This document shows positions 4,201 through 13,085 of a DNA stretch of 29,354 nucleotides, in pieces. Origin of the DNA: a virus. Numbering within the stretch: position 1 is the first letter of the stretch; every line of letters starts with the position of its first letter. The stretch is from IMG/VR virus record IMGVR_UViG_3300009158_000019, positions 1 through 29,354 of that record; one strand, 5' to 3'. Position numbers and translations under genes: made by a program. Below the pieces are notes generated by a model that was not told the origin of the DNA, did no database searches, and saw only the letters and a list, made by a program, of their open reading frames with translations.

Positions 4201-4548
4201 ATTGCTATAGTTTAACTATTAGTGTAATTAGCTTAATGCTTTTAGCTATTAACTAATGCTTAGAGCTTAGATGCTGAGCTAAATGAGAGATAGAAGTATC
4301 CTTCACAGCTATTGCTAACTGTGTTGGGCTCTCATTCAAAATGACTGTTCTCATGCTTGTCGCTTGAGTGCTTCGCCATCATGTATTAGTGTCATCAGCA
4401 ATGTGCACTAACCTGGTATCTACCTTTTAGAGATATTGCCATCCCTAAGTAACCTGGAGCTTATACCTTAGCCATACTCCTGAGCTGTGTTACTATCCCG
4501 CAGTAGCTCAATTCATTCTTTACACTGCTGTTAAACGCTTCCCTCTGT
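4201..4548 (-). ncRNA. Candidate structured non-coding RNA or 5' leader
   Basis: No ORF longer than 33 codons fits this stretch. It holds a series of hairpins: 4304-4323 (CACAG/CTGTG), 4332-4344 (TCATT/AATGA), 4386-4411 (TTAGTG/CACTAA), 4427-4448 (8 bp), 4456-4480 (GGAG/CTCC) and 4481-4510 (TGAGCT/AGCTCA). In the 8-bp stem, and at the end of the 4386-4411 stem, the imperfect pair is U-G on the minus-strand RNA but A-C on the plus strand. That points to a minus-strand transcript. TAACCTGG occurs twice (4409-4416, 4450-4457). It could be the long 5' leader of the phosphatase operon or an independent RNA. I cannot match it to a named RNA class. Confidence 0.4.
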
Positions 4549-4593
4549 AAAAAATATAGCCCTAAGGATGCAGGGTGAGAACATCCAAAGGGC
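4549..4593 (-). terminator. Terminator-like hairpin with possible loop pseudoknot
   Basis: On the minus-strand RNA, GCCCT (4593-4589) pairs with AGGGC (4563-4559) and GGATG with CATCC, separated by a TT/TT internal loop. The apical loop has 11 bases. TATA and six T (4554-4549) follow the stem, as in an intrinsic terminator. The loop contains CACCCTG (4577-4571), which is exactly complementary to CAGGGTG upstream (4633-4627), allowing a 7-bp pseudoknot. It lies 88 bp past the stop of the 63-aa membrane protein gene. Confidence 0.6.
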
Positions 4594-4631
4594 GTATAAA
4601 ACCTTAAATCAAATCTACAGTAATACCACCC

Positions 4632-4660
4632 TGTAACAAATATATTTAATATGTGTTACA
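4632..4660. repeat. 7-bp inverted repeat TGTAACA / TGTTACA
   Basis: TGTAACA (4632-4638) and TGTTACA (4654-4660) are perfect inverted repeats with a very AT-rich 15-base centre. The centre includes a minus-strand TATATTTG (4644-4637) that fits a Bacteroidota -7 element, but no -33 element lies at the right spacing. It may be an operator or a hairpin in the leader of the structured region. Confidence 0.4.
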
Positions 4661-4680
4661 AATTCTACCAATGTTAAAAA

Positions 4681-4872: not shown

Positions 4873-5375
4873 AGTTTTTTACGTTTAGCTCTTCGTTTCT
4901 TTATTTGTATAGGTATTTGCTCAAGAGTGAGCAGTGCTTGAGCTTGTTCTAATTTATTAAGCTCCTCAGCTAACTGCTGCTCTACATCATCCACGTATTT
5001 CTTAGCGCATGGACCGCAGCTTGTGCCAGGGTAATCTAAGTTAGTGTATTTCTTTCTAAGCTCACCTACCACTTTCATATCTTGGCTCGTTACCTGATTC
5101 TTACGCTTTAAAGATTCGATAAAGGCCAGCATGTTCTCAATTACTAATCTATCATCTAAGATAGGCCATTTCTTAGCTGGGCAATCTTTGACTGCATACA
5201 TTGCCAAGTGATCTATAGGGCAGCCACATGGCTTAAATGTAACGCCATTAAGCTCAGTTGGTTTAGCGAATGGATTAATGGCATTGGTAGGAGGCCCACA
5301 CGTCTTATAGCGAGTGTTAAATACTTCGCAGTTATTGCAGATCTCAATTCTCGCAGCGTAGTTTTCTTTAGTCAT
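4869..5375 (-). CDS. Cysteine-rich, probably zinc-binding protein (168 aa)
   Basis: Cysteine pairs and singles run through the first half: ICNNC (C13, C16), KTCGPP, FKPCGCPI and DCPAKKW. A second cluster, SCGPCAKKY, follows near residue 120. The spacing suggests one or two zinc-binding knuckles. The C-terminus is a coiled-coil-like helix ending in a strongly basic tail (KKRRAKRKKL). I recall similar Cys-patterned proteins in Bacteroidota phages, without known function. It sits after the sigma-like gene with an ATGA overlap, so it is co-expressed with it. A nucleic-acid-binding role fits the basic tail but is inference. Confidence 0.7.
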   Translation of the reverse strand: MTKENYAARIEICNNCEVFNTRYKTCGPPTNAINPFAKPTELNGVTFKPCGCPIDHLAMYAVKDCPAKKWPILDDRLVIENMLAFIESLKRKNQVTSQDMKVVGELRKKYTNLDYPGTSCGPCAKKYVDDVEQQLAEELNKLEQAQALLTLEQIPIQIKKRRAKRKKL

Positions 5376-5872
5376 ATTTGTAACGAATTTCTTAGTGTTA
5401 CTTTAGCTTTCTTAATTGTACGGTAAAGATAGTTCAAAGGTATGCCAGTCTCTTTAGCTAACTCTTGATAGCTAAAATCGTCAAGCGCATAAAGAAAGAA
5501 TAGCTCCCTTTCAAAGTATGGCAGCCTGCTGATAAAGATATCTAACTGCTCATTCTCAAGTCTCATTCCTACGCTCTTATTCACATCATCAATGATATCA
5601 TCTTTCAGATCGTTGCGTATCTTTTCGAATCTTAAACGAGTGTAGTTAAATGAGCTGTTACTGCAGCGTGCAGATAGTCTAATAGCATTGCTCACATAGT
5701 TATTGAGCTTTCCTCGGTTATGAATATCCTGCAATTTATCTTTATCACTTTCTAATATCTTCAGCAGCGTATCATGTAAAAGCTCATCAGCTAAATCTAA
5801 CCGGGTAACAGTTGCTGCTACTCTGCGCCATTCGGCATAGCATCGGTTAATTTCAGAGGTGTAGGTACTCAT
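5372..5872 (-). CDS. Sigma-70-family (ECF-like) transcription factor
   Basis: The 166-residue protein has the two-domain layout of small sigma factors. An N-terminal region-2-like helix set includes ADELLHDTLLKIL and NNYVSNAIR. A C-terminal region 4 covers residues 114-166 (LPYFERELFFLYALDDFSYQ, then ELAKETGIPLNYLYRTIKKA). The region-4 helix-turn-helix is clear; region 2 is weaker than in bacterial ECF factors. Such genes are frequent in Bacteroidota phages and are thought to redirect host RNA polymerase to phage promoters. It overlaps the nuclease gene by 20 bp and the next gene by 4 bp. The recurring TTTCCACTA motif is a possible, untested, target. Confidence 0.8.
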   Translation of the reverse strand: MSTYTSEINRCYAEWRRVAATVTRLDLADELLHDTLLKILESDKDKLQDIHNRGKLNNYVSNAIRLSARCSNSSFNYTRLRFEKIRNDLKDDIIDDVNKSVGMRLENEQLDIFISRLPYFERELFFLYALDDFSYQELAKETGIPLNYLYRTIKKAKVTLRNSLQI

Positions 5873-6200
5873 CTATAATTACTTTGGCCTCATCAAAACC
5901 TTTACAAATAGCGCAGACATATCCTCTCTCAGTTAGCTTCTTATGCCATTCTTTCTGATGTAAGCTTACTACTCCTCCCTTCTCTCGCTTCATCTCAATA
6001 GCTAAGCCATGGAAGGCATCACGAGGCTCATAGATAAAGATATCAGGAAAGCCCTTGACGTAGCCAGTGCGCTTCATCATTACAGCCTGTCTCATAGAAG
6101 TTCTTACCCCTCCTGCAGATGCACAGTAAAGAGTGCCAGGATACTGAGCATTAACATAGTTAATAACAGCCTCTTGGATTAGCGCCTCTTCGTTCTTCAT
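5853..6200 (-). CDS. VRR-NUC domain nuclease
   Basis: The 115-residue protein is a stand-alone VRR-NUC fold of the PD-(D/E)xK superfamily. It has AGGVRTSMRQAV near residues 29-40, GFPDIFIY with D53, then IEMK with E69 and K71, and LHQKEWHKKLTERGYVCAIC. All catalytic residues are present. Phage members are proposed to cut branched or structured DNA during replication or packaging. It is the first gene downstream of the candidate origin region and overlaps the sigma-like gene by 20 bp. Confidence 0.9.
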   Translation of the reverse strand: MKNEEALIQEAVINYVNAQYPGTLYCASAGGVRTSMRQAVMMKRTGYVKGFPDIFIYEPRDAFHGLAIEMKREKGGVVSLHQKEWHKKLTERGYVCAICKGFDEAKVIIDEYLHL

Positions 6201-6241
6201 GTGCTCAAAATTAGACTATTAACTTATCTGCTTTCAACATC

Positions 6242-6262
6242 TTATTCACATACTTATTCACA
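6242..6262 (+). promoter_or_regulatory. Two tandem DnaA boxes (candidate origin element)
   Basis: TTATTCACA occurs at 6242-6250 and again at 6254-6262, same orientation, 3 bp apart. Both match the DnaA box TTATNCACA exactly. They lie in a gene-free region of a phage that also encodes a DnaA domain IV protein (11207-11695), so binding by that protein or by host DnaA is plausible. Confidence 0.65.
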
Positions 6263-6277
6263 TAGTGTTAAGTGTGA

Positions 6278-6285
6278 TATATTTG
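6278..6285 (+). promoter_or_regulatory. Possible plus-strand -7 element (TATATTTG)
   Basis: TATATTTG matches the Bacteroidota -7 consensus TAnnTTTG on the plus strand, 56 bases before a plus-strand terminator. No good -33 TTTG stands 19-21 bases upstream; the DnaA boxes lie there instead. The match alone is weak. It is listed because it would start a short RNA ending at that terminator. Confidence 0.25.
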
Positions 6286-6340
6286 ACTATCCATTTCAGC
6301 CTTTTGGTTTAGGCTTATATTGATTATTTGATTATCTGAG

Positions 6341-6373
6341 AGAGCTTCACAACGGTGAGGCTCTTTTAGTTTT
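6341..6373 (+). terminator. Plus-strand intrinsic terminator
   Basis: AGAGCTTCAC pairs with GTGAGGCTCT over 10 bp with a 4-base loop (AACG), followed by TTTAGTTTT. The single non-Watson-Crick pair is U-G on the plus strand and A-C on the minus, and the T-tract is on the plus side only. The element is therefore oriented for plus-strand transcription, although no plus-strand gene was found. Confidence 0.7.
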
Positions 6374-6394
6374 ATACCCTATAGTGTGCTTTTG

Positions 6395-6442
6395 CGTATA
6401 ATTTGCAGATATTAGCGGATATTATACGTTATCGGGTATAAT
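6395..6442. repeat. GTATAAT dyad and repeats
   Basis: CGTATAAT (6395-6402) and ATTATACG (6421-6428) form an 8-bp inverted repeat, and GTATAAT recurs at 6436-6442. Between them lie the related units GCAGATATTA and GCGGATATTA. The AT-rich, repeated and dyadic layout suits a protein-binding or DNA-unwinding element in the candidate origin region. Confidence 0.5.
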
Positions 6443-6487
6443 TTTTAGAAAAATTCATGCAGTTAATTCGGTTATTTTCCGAGTTAG

Positions 6488-6540
6488 TGTAGATTATTTT
6501 CCACTATAAGGCTCATTCTGTAGATTATTTTCTACTATAG
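6488..6540 (+). repeat. Two direct repeats, TGTAGATTATTTT type, 31-bp period
   Basis: TGTAGATTATTTTCCACTAT (from 6488) and TGTAGATTATTTTCTACTAT (from 6519) differ at one position over 20 bases. Each contains a short internal dyad (GTAGA with TCTAC; one mismatch in the first copy). Each also carries the TTTC[C/T]ACTA motif found before several late genes (6498-6506 and 6529-6537). Iteron or operator function is possible. Confidence 0.6.
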
Positions 6541-6541
6541 C

Positions 6542-6570
6542 TGTCGCAAAAGTCTACTATACTTGCGACA
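6542..6570. repeat. 8-bp inverted repeat TGTCGCAA / TTGCGACA
   Basis: A perfect inverted repeat (6542-6549 and 6563-6570) with a 13-base spacer containing another TCTACTATA. It directly follows the two direct repeats. It looks like a dimeric protein-binding site. Confidence 0.5.
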
Positions 6571-6656
6571 AACATTTGCCAGTAGATGAAAATACTGTCT
6601 ATTGTTGGCTGTCCGCTTATAACAACCCATATTATAGTATGCAATATCCGTCATAA

Positions 6657-6696
6657 CACACTTTTAAGTACGATAAAGTGTGCTAAATCACACTTT
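6657..6696. repeat. Three CACACTTT half-sites after the large terminase
   Basis: CACACTTT occurs at 6657-6664, inverted at 6675-6682 and direct again at 6689-6696. The last two form a perfect 8-bp stem with a 6-base loop, 13 bp past the terminase stop. The run of T after the stem is short, so an operator or a weak terminator or processing hairpin are both possible. Confidence 0.5.
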
Positions 6697-6708
6697 AAGC
6701 GAGTTATC

Positions 6709-9785: not shown

Positions 9786-10528
9786 TCTTTCTCTTTGTTA
9801 ATTTGTTTAATAATGTCAATGTAAATTAATCTGCTGAGCTCAATCTTTTGCAAGCCATCAAATTCAGCTTGTGCGCTTTCGCCTAAGATTACTCTGTTAG
9901 ATGCCTTAAATTTAGCCTCTACCTTCTGTTTTGCGATATCTTCAAAGCGTGCCCATACCTCAGGCTCCCACATAGATTTTTTATAGATGCCTTGCTTAAA
10001 GAGGCGCTGGCAGTTATAAGGTGCAGATATTTCTACCCAGGTGTGCTTACCATCATTCCATCTTTCTAAATCAGCGTGTAGAACATTTACAGGATCTGTA
10101 GGTTCAGCTCTTTTGATTTCGGGAAAGGTCATGATAAGCGCCTTATTAAGCTCTCTCCATACCTTAGCTTTATACTCTTCATATCGCTTAAGCACATCTG
10201 CCATAAAGCTTATGCTGAATAGGTTAAAAGCTTCTACTCTTTCGAAGTCTTTACCAATTGCATTGTACAGGAAGGCATTTTGCCAATCCTTAATACTTGT
10301 ACTGCGATACGTATTTTGCGTAAGTTGCTGCAATAGAGTTACTTCTATGTCGCTTGGTAAAGCTTTAATAGAGTTAATCACAGCAGCCTGTGCTATAAGC
10401 TCTCTAAACTCCTGCTCATTTAACGAGTGCAGCTTAGGTGAGCTAATGCATTCTGCAATAGCTTTCTCCTCAGCGCTTAGTGAACGATTGAAGCTCTGCT
10501 GTACTGATGCGGCCAATTCTTTGCTCAT
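9782..10528 (-). CDS. Putative replication-module protein (248 aa)
   Basis: I start the gene at ATG 10528 (MSKELAASVQQSF), since the longer frame opens with GTG. The central segment (SIKDWQNAFLYNAIGKDFER, then EAFNLFSISFMADVLKRYEE) resembles a family I recall from Bacteroidota prophage replication regions, with a 'D-x-x-AF-x-x-A-x-G' turn and an 'NFS' helix. No Walker or polymerase motifs are present. The gene overlaps the upstream replisome-organiser-like gene by 59 bp. A primosome or helicase-loading role is inferred from position and similarity. Confidence 0.6.
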   Translation of the reverse strand: MSKELAASVQQSFNRSLSAEEKAIAECISSPKLHSLNEQEFRELIAQAAVINSIKALPSDIEVTLLQQLTQNTYRSTSIKDWQNAFLYNAIGKDFERVEAFNLFSISFMADVLKRYEEYKAKVWRELNKALIMTFPEIKRAEPTDPVNVLHADLERWNDGKHTWVEISAPYNCQRLFKQGIYKKSMWEPEVWARFEDIAKQKVEAKFKASNRVILGESAQAEFDGLQKIELSRLIYIDIIKQINKEKE

Positions 10529-10793
10529 CTTCTTTAGTTTTAGTTTGGTTAATCTCACGTGCTCTCCACTGATCAGCAGCAGCTCTCCAGCTCTTCATAG
10601 AATTCTTACCTACTTTCCATCCATTGCTTTCATAGTGGCAATAGAATTTCTTAGCTAAGTCTACATTGTCTAGGTAAGCTATGATTTCTGATAGTGATGG
10701 GGGAGTGAATTTTGTAGAGGTAGAGCGCTTAGATTCAAGCGCCTTTACCCTCTCTTCGAGCGCTTCTATGCGCTTTAATAAAATAGTCATCAT
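10470..10793 (-). CDS. Replisome-organiser/helicase-loader-like protein (107 aa)
   Basis: The first 25 residues form a coiled coil (MMTILLKRIEALEERVKALE). Then comes the segment PPSLSEIIAYLDN followed by FYCHYESNGWKVGKNSMKSW and RAAADQW. The GWKVGKNxMKxW-AA motif is typical of C-terminal domains of phage and plasmid replication proteins that recruit the host helicase. It sits in the middle of the replication module. Domain recognition is fair; a direct helicase-loading function is inferred. Confidence 0.65.
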   Translation of the reverse strand: MMTILLKRIEALEERVKALESKRSTSTKFTPPSLSEIIAYLDNVDLAKKFYCHYESNGWKVGKNSMKSWRAAADQWRAREINQTKTKEDEQRIGRISTAELQSFTKR

Positions 10794-10798
10794 TTGGT

Positions 10799-11188
10799 TT
10801 ATTGATTATTGATTAGCCAAATATAGTAAAATCTTTTCCACCAAGGCAGTGCTATAGCTTTTTTTATAGGATTACTCTTTGGCATATTAACTAATCCAAC
10901 CATATCAGTATCTGCTTTTGATGCCTGAATCTCACTGTAGTATTTATTCTTTGCCTCAATAAACTGATTAAACTTATCTTGTCTAAGATGCTTCATAGCT
11001 TCCCACTCGCGTGAGCCTACCTTTTTAATAATGCCTACCTCTCTCATAAGCTGCAGATATTGCTTGCCCATTCGTTCAGTTCTTAGCGCTGCGCTCGGAG
11101 TCATACCAGCGTTAACTAATACGCATACTCTTTTTACTCGGTCTATGGTTACCTTACCGGTATCATAGCTAATGGTTAATTGCTTCAT
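10799..11188 (-). CDS. Hypothetical protein, possible DNA-binding (129 aa)
   Basis: Residues 18-55 (VKRVCVLVNAGMTPSAALRT, then ERMGKQYLQLMREVGIIKK) could form a helix-turn-helix like those in resolvase- or terminase-type proteins. The rest is basic, ending LPWWKRFYYIWLINNQ. No signal peptide is present. It lies between the DnaA-like and replisome-organiser-like genes and is preceded by an AT-rich leader. A TATATTTG at 10825-10818, inside its 3' end, could be a weak -7 element for the next gene, but the spacing to any -33 is short. Confidence 0.6.
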   Translation of the reverse strand: MKQLTISYDTGKVTIDRVKRVCVLVNAGMTPSAALRTERMGKQYLQLMREVGIIKKVGSREWEAMKHLRQDKFNQFIEAKNKYYSEIQASKADTDMVGLVNMPKSNPIKKAIALPWWKRFYYIWLINNQ

Positions 11189-11206
11189 TTGATTATTGAT
11201 TATTAA

Positions 11207-11903: not shown

Positions 11904-12143
11904 TTATTTAGTTTTAGAGTCTTTCATTAATTCTATAATGTATGGTATCTCCTCCTCAGTTATTGTAGCAAGCTTTCCTATGTGAGTTACCTTCATAGTA
12001 AATGGCTGCTTAATAAATTTTTGAGCTGTGGGGTAACTTACCTCCAGCACCTCCGCAAACTGAGCCACAGTCACAAAGTGACTGCGTACCCAGCTGTGGA
12101 AAGGTGTAAGCTTAGAATGGCATTTCATCGTCTGCGCTTTCAT
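11904..12143 (-). CDS. Small HTH protein (79 aa)
   Basis: Residues 25-47 (TVAQFAEVLEVSYPTAQKFI) form a likely helix-turn-helix, followed by a short acidic C-terminus. ATG codons at 12143 and 12128 are both possible starts. The later one leaves 74 residues and a smaller overlap with the SSB-like gene. A transcriptional regulator of the early operon or a replication accessory are both consistent. The HTH reading is moderate in strength. Confidence 0.6.
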   Translation of the reverse strand: MKAQTMKCHSKLTPFHSWVRSHFVTVAQFAEVLEVSYPTAQKFIKQPFTMKVTHIGKLATITEEEIPYIIELMKDSKTK

Positions 12144-12732
12144 TTGTTAATGCTTTAATTTGTACTGCTTCTACTGCCTCACCTTTAAGCCATGCTAAGA
12201 ATATCTCAGCTGTATCTAATACATCACCTGGCTTACTGCCCTTTTGCTCTTTGCAGAATAAGACTGCATTGTTTAGAGCTACCGATTTGCTTATTGAGTT
12301 CTGCACATCAGGTGATTCTTTGCGGTAATTAGGAGCGCTATTCACCGCACCACTTGGAGCAGATGTAGTGCCACTAAACTGCATTGGATTCTGCATCTTA
12401 AAGTTAGTGCTCTTCTTACCCGTAGGGCCAGTGCGCTCTTCTACAGTATAGTGCAAGGTAGCTCCTACTGCTATCTTAGGACTGTTCATGTCCTTTACTC
12501 CAATCTGCCCGATCTCACCATTCTCTAATACTAAATCAAAGTAATGGATCTCTCCACTTGGGCCATTCCATGTTCTAACGAATTTCTGTTGTTTAACGAT
12601 TTGCTGATTCATAACTATTTGTTTGTTTTGATTTATATAATTTTCTAACTTGTTTGCTAACTTTTCTTCCTGCTCATCCCAATCTATTGTAGGCTTGAGC
12701 TTCTGCCAATTAGGTTCTCTGCTGTAGTTCAT
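12112..12732 (-). CDS. Single-strand DNA-binding-like protein (206 aa)
   Basis: I start at ATG 12732 (MNYSREPNWQKLKPT) rather than the upstream 12768, which would run deep into the preceding ORF. Residues 50-110 look like an OB-fold (KFVRTWNGPSGEIHYFDLVL and IAVGATLHYTVEER). A Gly/Ser/Pro-rich linker and a helical part follow. The last residues, ADDEMPF, are an acidic tail like the DDxxPF end that SSB proteins use to recruit partners. No sequence match to classical SSB was seen. Position in the replication module supports the call. Confidence 0.65.
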   Translation of the reverse strand: MNYSREPNWQKLKPTIDWDEQEEKLANKLENYINQNKQIVMNQQIVKQQKFVRTWNGPSGEIHYFDLVLENGEIGQIGVKDMNSPKIAVGATLHYTVEERTGPTGKKSTNFKMQNPMQFSGTTSAPSGAVNSAPNYRKESPDVQNSISKSVALNNAVLFCKEQKGSKPGDVLDTAEIFLAWLKGEAVEAVQIKALTNESADDEMPF

Positions 12733-12865
12733 GGGGGTTATTTTGAAAGTATGAGCGCCAGCTCTCATAGACTATCTTCTCGGCTTGCTGATTGAACTCT
12801 AACTCCTCTCCCGGTAGTGAGCTCTGCACGCAGATGAATCTGCTGTTGGCGCGATCAGATAACAT
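12710..12865 (-). CDS. Small hypothetical protein (51 aa)
   Basis: An ORF from ATG 12865 (or GTG 12874) to TAA 12710 fills the gap between the 76-aa gene and the SSB-like gene and overlaps both. It starts MLSDRANSRFICVQSS and continues EELEFNQQAEKIVYESWRSY, a soluble helical peptide. Protein-like composition and tight overlaps support it. No family recognised. Confidence 0.5.
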   Translation of the reverse strand: MLSDRANSRFICVQSSLPGEELEFNQQAEKIVYESWRSYFQNNPHELQQRT

Positions 12866-13085
12866 AGCGGTCACTCATAAAGTAGTCATGTATATTCTCT
12901 TCGCCTTCGCTTTCAAATTGGAACAGAAAAGTACCATCATCAGGAAATACCTCCCCATGTTTTTTAGCTGTTGAGAAATCATTTAGAGAGTAGCTGTAAG
13001 CATTTGTGTACAGCTGCCATTTGCATCCTTCGGCATCCCACCGAGATACGATTACCTTACCGGTAATGTTGTTTGGTTTGTTCAT
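12855..13085 (-). CDS. Hypothetical protein (76 aa)
   Basis: The ATG is preceded by an AT-rich leader (ATTAAATAATCAAT). Beta-rich, acidic sequence (GKVIVSRWDAEGCKWQLYTN; DDGTFLFQFESEGEENIHDY) has no signal peptide or membrane segment. It belongs to the run of small early genes behind the 13.7-kb promoter. Such proteins often modify host functions early in infection, but nothing in this one shows how. It overlaps the 51-aa ORF by 11 bp. Confidence 0.6.
   Translation of the reverse strand: MNKPNNITGKVIVSRWDAEGCKWQLYTNAYSYSLNDFSTAKKHGEVFPDDGTFLFQFESEGEENIHDYFMSDRYVI

Follow-up and report, generated by a model that had tools for sequence, protein, structure and literature searches.

The window analyzed here, meaning the whole stretch of 29,354 nucleotides, is a circular phage contig whose ends overlap by an exact 23 bp. 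A tail-fibre-like gene spans the contig ends (1–1701 and 28810–29352), and a single gene running across them fits a circular or terminally redundant genome. All credible genes of the window are carried on the minus strand. Between the genes for a VRR-NUC nuclease and terL there is a gap of 508 bp (6201–6708) which, as an earlier sequence-only reading had stated, contains no credible gene, and the two exact DnaA boxes in the same orientation which that reading had placed there, 3 bp apart, were found as described. Together they make up an exact 12-bp tandem, CTTATTCACATA, on the plus strand. The features of this region and those linked to it elsewhere in the phage are presented in Table 1.

Table 1. 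Features of the VRR-NUC/terL gap and of associated loci; promoters, RNA and target sites are predictions.
Feature	Position	Strand	Remarks
ECF-type sigma factor gene	5372–5872	-	Second gene after P-minus; TIGR02937
VRR-NUC nuclease/Holliday-junction-resolvase-like gene	5853–6200	-	First gene after P-minus
-7 element of P-minus, TAATTTTG	6206–6213	-	Constant in 57/57 distinct relatives; faces VRR-NUC/sigma operon
Box 2, TTATTCACA	6242–6250	+	TTATTCACA or TTGTTAACA in relatives; about -41 to -49 of P-minus
Box 1, TTATTCACA	6254–6262	+	TTATTCACA or TTATGCACA in relatives; about -28 to -36 of P-plus
-7 element of P-plus, TATATTTG (TATCTTTG elsewhere)	6278–6285	+	Faces predicted small RNA
Predicted small RNA, about 83 nt	6290–6372	+	Start placed from G at -5 of the -7 element, end from U run
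Hairpin 1 of small RNA, AGCC / loop TTTTGGTTTA / GGCT	6298–6315	+	Stems read by eye
Linker ATATTGATTATTTGATTA	6317–6334	+	Predicted single-stranded; complementary to early-gene leaders
Hairpin 2, terminator-like, with U run	6340–6373	+	Stem covaries
Predicted target 3, leader of gene 10470–10793, aatcaataatcaataaaccaaATG	10794–10814	-	Energy -20.2, z -3.0
Predicted target 2, leader of gene 10799–11188, taataatcaataatcaaATG	11189–11204	-	Energy -25.5, z -5.6
DnaA domain IV protein, 162 aa	11207–11695	-	Bac_DnaA_C, Pfam PF08299, E 8e-15, residues 64–127
Predicted target 1, start of gene 12855–13085, aaataatcaatATGAACAAACCAAA	13072–13096	-	Energy -25.9, z -6.8

The phage family is a freshwater one and the terL protein of the window matched that of Flavobacterium phage 11b at 46%. 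No close terL relative was found when genome contigs were searched, and a search of 395 Bacteroidota genomes returned three distant matches (31–39% identity); in these three genomes DnaA was present only as the chromosomal, full-length protein. From the likeness of terL and the type of promoter described below, we would guess that the host of the family probably belongs to the Bacteroidota. Relatives of the phage were collected through terL and the DnaA-domain protein and are close kin (terL 86%–100%), and from these 79 loci were chosen solely by similarity of terL and VRR.

The window contains three exact single boxes where 1.77 are expected, and 25 of 100 shuffles had as many, while a same-strand pair within 30 bp was obtained only once when the window was dinucleotide-shuffled 400 times; it is therefore the closeness of the pair which is unusual and not the number of boxes. 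The third exact box (5577–5585) was considered as part of the system and rejected, as its place is within the sigma-factor gene and its changes among relatives fall at synonymous sites, which marks it as coincidental. Comparison with related phages, which had been proposed as a check on the boxes, showed box 1 to be kept in every relative examined: it was present at 79/79 loci, 64 or 65 nt ahead of the VRR-NUC start, over a set in which the gap between terL and VRR varies from about 165 to 513 bp. That the pair is a functionless chance duplication is thus hardly credible in spite of the ordinary rate of single boxes, as both this fixed distance and the rarity of the pair in shuffles speak against it and conservation already contradicts it.

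Among 57 distinct sequences the interval from box 1 to TAATTTTG contained many substitutions and not a single indel, with indels present in the sequence upstream of box 1 and in that between TAATTTTG and the ATG. Variation in box 1 was limited to the N position of TTATNCACA. Box 2 took two forms in 70 distinct contexts, TTATTCACA in 41 and TTGTTAACA in 29. Judged from the relatives with short gaps, conservation extends over a unit of about 166 bp and the remainder of the 508 bp consists of variable repeats. This core, together with the fixed register, indicates that the boxes are framed by the VRR-NUC promoter region and not by the gap as a whole. The segment 6373–6708 carries variable repeat modules, such as TGTAGATTATTTTCYACTATA which is found twice, as well as hairpins, and is missing in short-gap relatives. 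When viral contigs were searched for the pattern of boxes and spacing, about 20 unrelated matches were obtained, near the level of chance except for L213 (IMGVR_UViG_3300028584_000153), an unrelated viral contig which has a longer array of five head-to-tail 12-bp TGTGAATAAGTA units with the same spacing as here.

The box pair is flanked by two promoter-like elements which face away from each other. Both -7 elements match TAHHTTTG, the refined -7 element of F. johnsoniae in which the G lies at -5 (PMC6847099), and in this they resemble primary-sigma promoters of Bacteroidota. Of 70 distinct contexts, 67 had the P-plus element TANNTTTG at a distance of 14–15 nt beyond box 1. By the numbering of the same study, transcription is predicted to start at about 6201 for P-minus, a single base ahead of the start codon, and at about 6290 for P-plus, so that the two boxes together reach from about -41 to about -61 with respect to P-minus and from about -28 to about -48 with respect to P-plus. 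The predicted P-minus transcript would be nearly leaderless on the VRR-NUC gene, and nearly leaderless mRNA is uncommon in F. johnsoniae (PMC6847099). Where both elements differ from primary-sigma promoters is in having no TTTG at -33: with a spacing of 17–21 nt it was found in 0/51 cases at P-minus and 0/56 at P-plus, unlike the early promoter TTTG-N19-TACATTTG of this phage (13671–13700), in which it is kept in 19 of 20 relatives, and unlike a second phage promoter at 4610–4639, which also has it. Its absence would fit a need for an activator at P-minus and P-plus without proving one, since F. johnsoniae promoters in general have a weak -33 element (PMC6847099).

The sequence-only reading had also assigned the DNA-binding domain of DnaA to a phage gene, and the Pfam match bears this out (Table 1). 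Residues 62–147 of the protein aligned to domain IV of host-type DnaA (hhalign against flavobacterial DnaA, 86 columns, 98%), and Foldseek matched it to the DnaA-DNA complexes 3pvp and 1j1v with TM scores (target) of 0.84–0.86. Domain I and the AAA+ domain III are absent from the 162-aa protein. For the helical residues 1–60 no DnaA domain was detected by hhalign and no match was found; a remnant of DnaA domain IIIb was considered for this N-terminus on the basis of a weak PDB profile match to B. subtilis DnaA and was rejected, as profile-profile comparison gave it no support.

The residues of E. coli DnaA which contact bases are R399, P423, D433, H434, T435 and H439 (PMC7561715), and when these were mapped by eye onto the phage protein R399, H434 and usually H439 were found to be kept, with D433 replaced by H in most relatives and T435 by A. 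The change from DHTT to HHAT in the signature had thus been read correctly, but half of it is normal for the host, as T435 is likewise A, and the signature DHAT, in 80/80 flavobacterial DnaA proteins (the query used for fetching these itself contained DHAT, the search words did not). Only the exchange of D for H is therefore specific to the phage, and some of its relatives keep RDHST.

Among the 24–29 genes tested, the gene for the DnaA-domain protein, although 5 kb from the boxes, was the best correlate of box 2 type (r 0.371, p 0.0005, n = 37). Its neighbours showed nothing comparable (gene 11188, r 0.01; gene 12143, r -0.04), nor did VRR (r 0.07) or terL (r 0.05), and the second-best correlate was the sigma gene (r 0.26). 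Removing the distances of terL and genes 8891, 10793 and 10558 in a partial Mantel test left the value almost as it was (r 0.36, p 0.0006). When DnaA type was cross-tabulated with box 2 type, a Fisher p of 0.0002 was obtained, with seven exceptions. These permutation tests assume independence, and the kinship of the phages overstates their significance. The strongest column, picked as the best among 162, was residue 120 of the recognition helix, directly after HHAT, where isoleucine went with TTATTCACA at 14:2 and valine with TTGTTAACA at 19:2. Two phages with the residue 120 of the opposite group also bear the box of the opposite group; there is one such case per group, and covariation within either DnaA type was not significant. 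Residue 120 is predicted to be a specificity residue. The covariation is suggestive of the phage protein reading the boxes, and with box 1 in every relative and box 2 covarying beyond the genome background, the protein and the boxes are probably linked in function.

The boxes might instead be bound by the DnaA of the host, which would either be titrated or let the host cycle set the timing of phage transcription, while the phage protein acted elsewhere, for instance as a competitor at host boxes. In favour of this are the perfect consensus of box 1, which varies only at N, and a domain IV of the usual kind in DnaA from the likely host phylum. We consider it very unlikely all the same, given that box 2 departs from the consensus as TTGTTAACA in 29 of 70 contexts and follows the phage protein rather than the genome background, and that effective titration would need more than two boxes.

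Downstream of P-plus the sequence has the features of a small RNA gene. The loop of hairpin 1 is nearly constant among relatives and its stem changes yet remains paired, the variants read by eye being AGCC/GGCT, GACC/GGTT, TTGC/GCAA, TTACC/GGTAA and AGCTC/GAGCT; RNAalifold did not place this hairpin. The linker is constant as well, of the GATTATTGATT type. Exchanges in the stem of hairpin 2 were of the C-G/G-C, U-A/G-C, U-A/C-G and A-U/G-C types, and a U run follows this hairpin in the plus direction only. On sequence grounds the RNA would therefore have a promoter of its own and a covarying terminator-like hairpin, as a trans-acting small RNA should.

Such an RNA should also have a conserved unpaired stretch complementary to the starts of its targets, and the phage was searched for complements, with duplex energies scored against dinucleotide shuffles. 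Loop and linker were found to complement three early-gene starts in antiparallel order, with the stem skipped (Table 1). The ranking was repeated over 43 loci, using for each the RNA of that locus, and expressed as the percentage of loci with the target gene present in which its start was among the top three: 83% for gene 13085 (mean z -4.6), 94% for gene 11188 (mean z -4.4) and 72% for gene 10793 (mean z -3.0), as against mean z values of -0.3, -0.1 and 0.2 for three control genes. These pairing statistics are limited by the kinship of the relatives and by leaders which are rich in A and share a type in part. Gene 10799–11188, the next after the DnaA-domain gene, encodes proteins which differ widely among relatives (24%–100% identity, and 24%–50% in many of them) and has a conserved start region, so that here the protein has been replaced while the complementary stretch is kept. 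The start of VRR-NUC also scored highly and was rejected as a target because the complementary sequence lies upstream of its own predicted transcript start. Judged by these features, the predicted RNA (about 83 nt) seems built for blocking three early genes of the phage.

It could be argued that there is no small RNA, the plus-strand hairpins and leader-like sequence being relics of duplicated gene leaders or DNA structures and the complementarity a shared leader motif. The minus strand of this stretch does resemble early-gene leaders, and A-rich leaders are common in Flavobacteria (PMC6847099). We regard this as improbable, however. None of 697 flavobacterial starts paired as well as the two best targets, so that a generic leader motif is no explanation for these two, though 13 paired as well as the third; moreover the stem around the loop varies with its pairing preserved, the pairing with targets skips exactly this stem, the terminator and the -7 element both face the plus strand, and on the minus strand no start codon or reading frame follows.

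The alternative which bears on the region as a whole is that it is the replication origin of the phage, marked by the DnaA-domain protein with or without host DnaA, while host helicase and polymerase complete the process. The small RNA would then be a copy-number control or a transcript which aids opening, and an origin of this kind is compatible with a switch. In having two tandem boxes in one orientation the region resembles the basal unwinding system (BUS) of bacterial oriC, for which at least two tandem DnaA boxes are looked for, and no other conserved box cluster was found in the window. The replication gene set is sparse: it comprises the DnaA domain IV protein, an SSB-like protein, the resolvase-like nuclease and gene 10793 with a very weak DnaD-like match (PHROG E 0.023). 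The SSB-like assignment (gene 12112–12768) has a conserved DDEMPF tail as its sole basis, and no database family matched when searched. A role for gene 10793 as helicase loader was rejected, as PDB, Pfam and NCBIfam gave no confirmation of the PHROG match. The proteins scanned, which included few of the structural ones, yielded no match to an AAA+, polymerase or helicase domain, in agreement with the sequence-only reading.

DnaA domains I and III are the known helicase contacts and DnaA-trios are read by the AAA+ domain. The phage protein has neither domain, and the trio repeats which belong to the basal unwinding system are represented by one TAG after box 1 with variable triplets beyond it. 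The proposal that the protein marks an origin and hands it over to host DnaA/DnaB consequently found no support. Placing an origin in the 508-bp gap fared no better, the conserved core of about 166 bp being without a strong AT-rich unwinding stretch and the boxes, just two in number, keeping a fixed register with the promoter-like elements which flank them. GC skew, suggested earlier as a check, kept its sign at 6.2–6.6 kb, which is uninformative with all genes on one strand. We consider an origin at this site unlikely, if still deserving of attention, and from their sequence setting the boxes look more like a genetic switch than a proven replication origin.

Our preferred reading, held with slightly better than even confidence, is that the two divergent promoters share the boxes as an operator, to which the phage DnaA-domain-IV protein binds in a switch from early to late expression. 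The host-type promoter TTTG-N19-TACATTTG would express the early genes, including that for the DnaA-domain protein, which would then bind the tandem boxes. We infer activation rather than repression of either promoter: the bound protein would turn on P-minus, giving the VRR nuclease and the sigma factor and hence later genes, which the sigma factor would serve, and would act on P-plus to give the RNA of about 83 nt, which would pair with three early translation starts and shut those genes down. We put forward more tentatively, as somewhat short of an even prospect, the full scheme in which a lone DnaA domain acts as the transcription switch, with the nuclease/sigma operon one way and a small RNA silencing translation of three early genes the other, so that parts of the origin-recognition machinery run the early-to-late decision. 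Counting against a switch are the nearly leaderless P-minus mRNA, the sigma gene as second-best correlate of box 2 and the exceptions to the covariation.

DnaA also regulates transcription through DnaA boxes in bacterial promoters. The phage system has in common with this the domain IV fold and TTATNCACA boxes upstream of a promoter, and differs in that the protein is phage-encoded, has an unrelated N-terminus of 60 residues and has no nucleotide switch. Control of the phage lambda CII type, in which an activator makes antisense RNAs, is alike in its single phage regulator, its promoters in both directions and an RNA which lowers another gene set; the differences are that three separate starts would be targeted in trans by the RNA and that a DnaA domain serves as regulator. 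The Bac_DnaA_C proteins which stand alone (NCBIfam PRK06030, the 'DnaA-like' proteins of Rhizobium phage and phrog_27829) share a domain IV without AAA+ and are annotated without an assigned target, whereas the present phage has a conserved and co-varying candidate operator. Lone DnaA domain IV proteins thus occur in several phages, and in annotations and literature we found no target for them; nor did we find a report of a phage DnaA-domain transcription switch in a literature search which was incomplete. The co-varying pair of protein and operator offers a concrete target for testing, along with the predicted specificity residue, and a trans-acting small RNA with named targets is predicted in uncultured phages of probable Bacteroidota hosts. 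If the scheme is true, phage transcription regulators, and not initiators alone, would derive from DnaA domains.

Two further observations were made on the phage and its relatives. On the minus strand at 4201–4680 there is a non-coding region of 480 nt in which a TTTG-N19-TAGATTTG promoter is accompanied by a structured RNA, predicted to span about 330 nt. Rfam gave RF02932 alone for this RNA, below threshold; across about 100 related loci it is kept at roughly 78%–91%, and of 98 predicted pairs 14 have double changes, with 0.5% broken cells. One relative (IMGVR_UViG_3300034168_000141, loci L079, L115 and L208) is, at 61,462 bp, about twice the size of the others and is perhaps a head-to-tail dimer.
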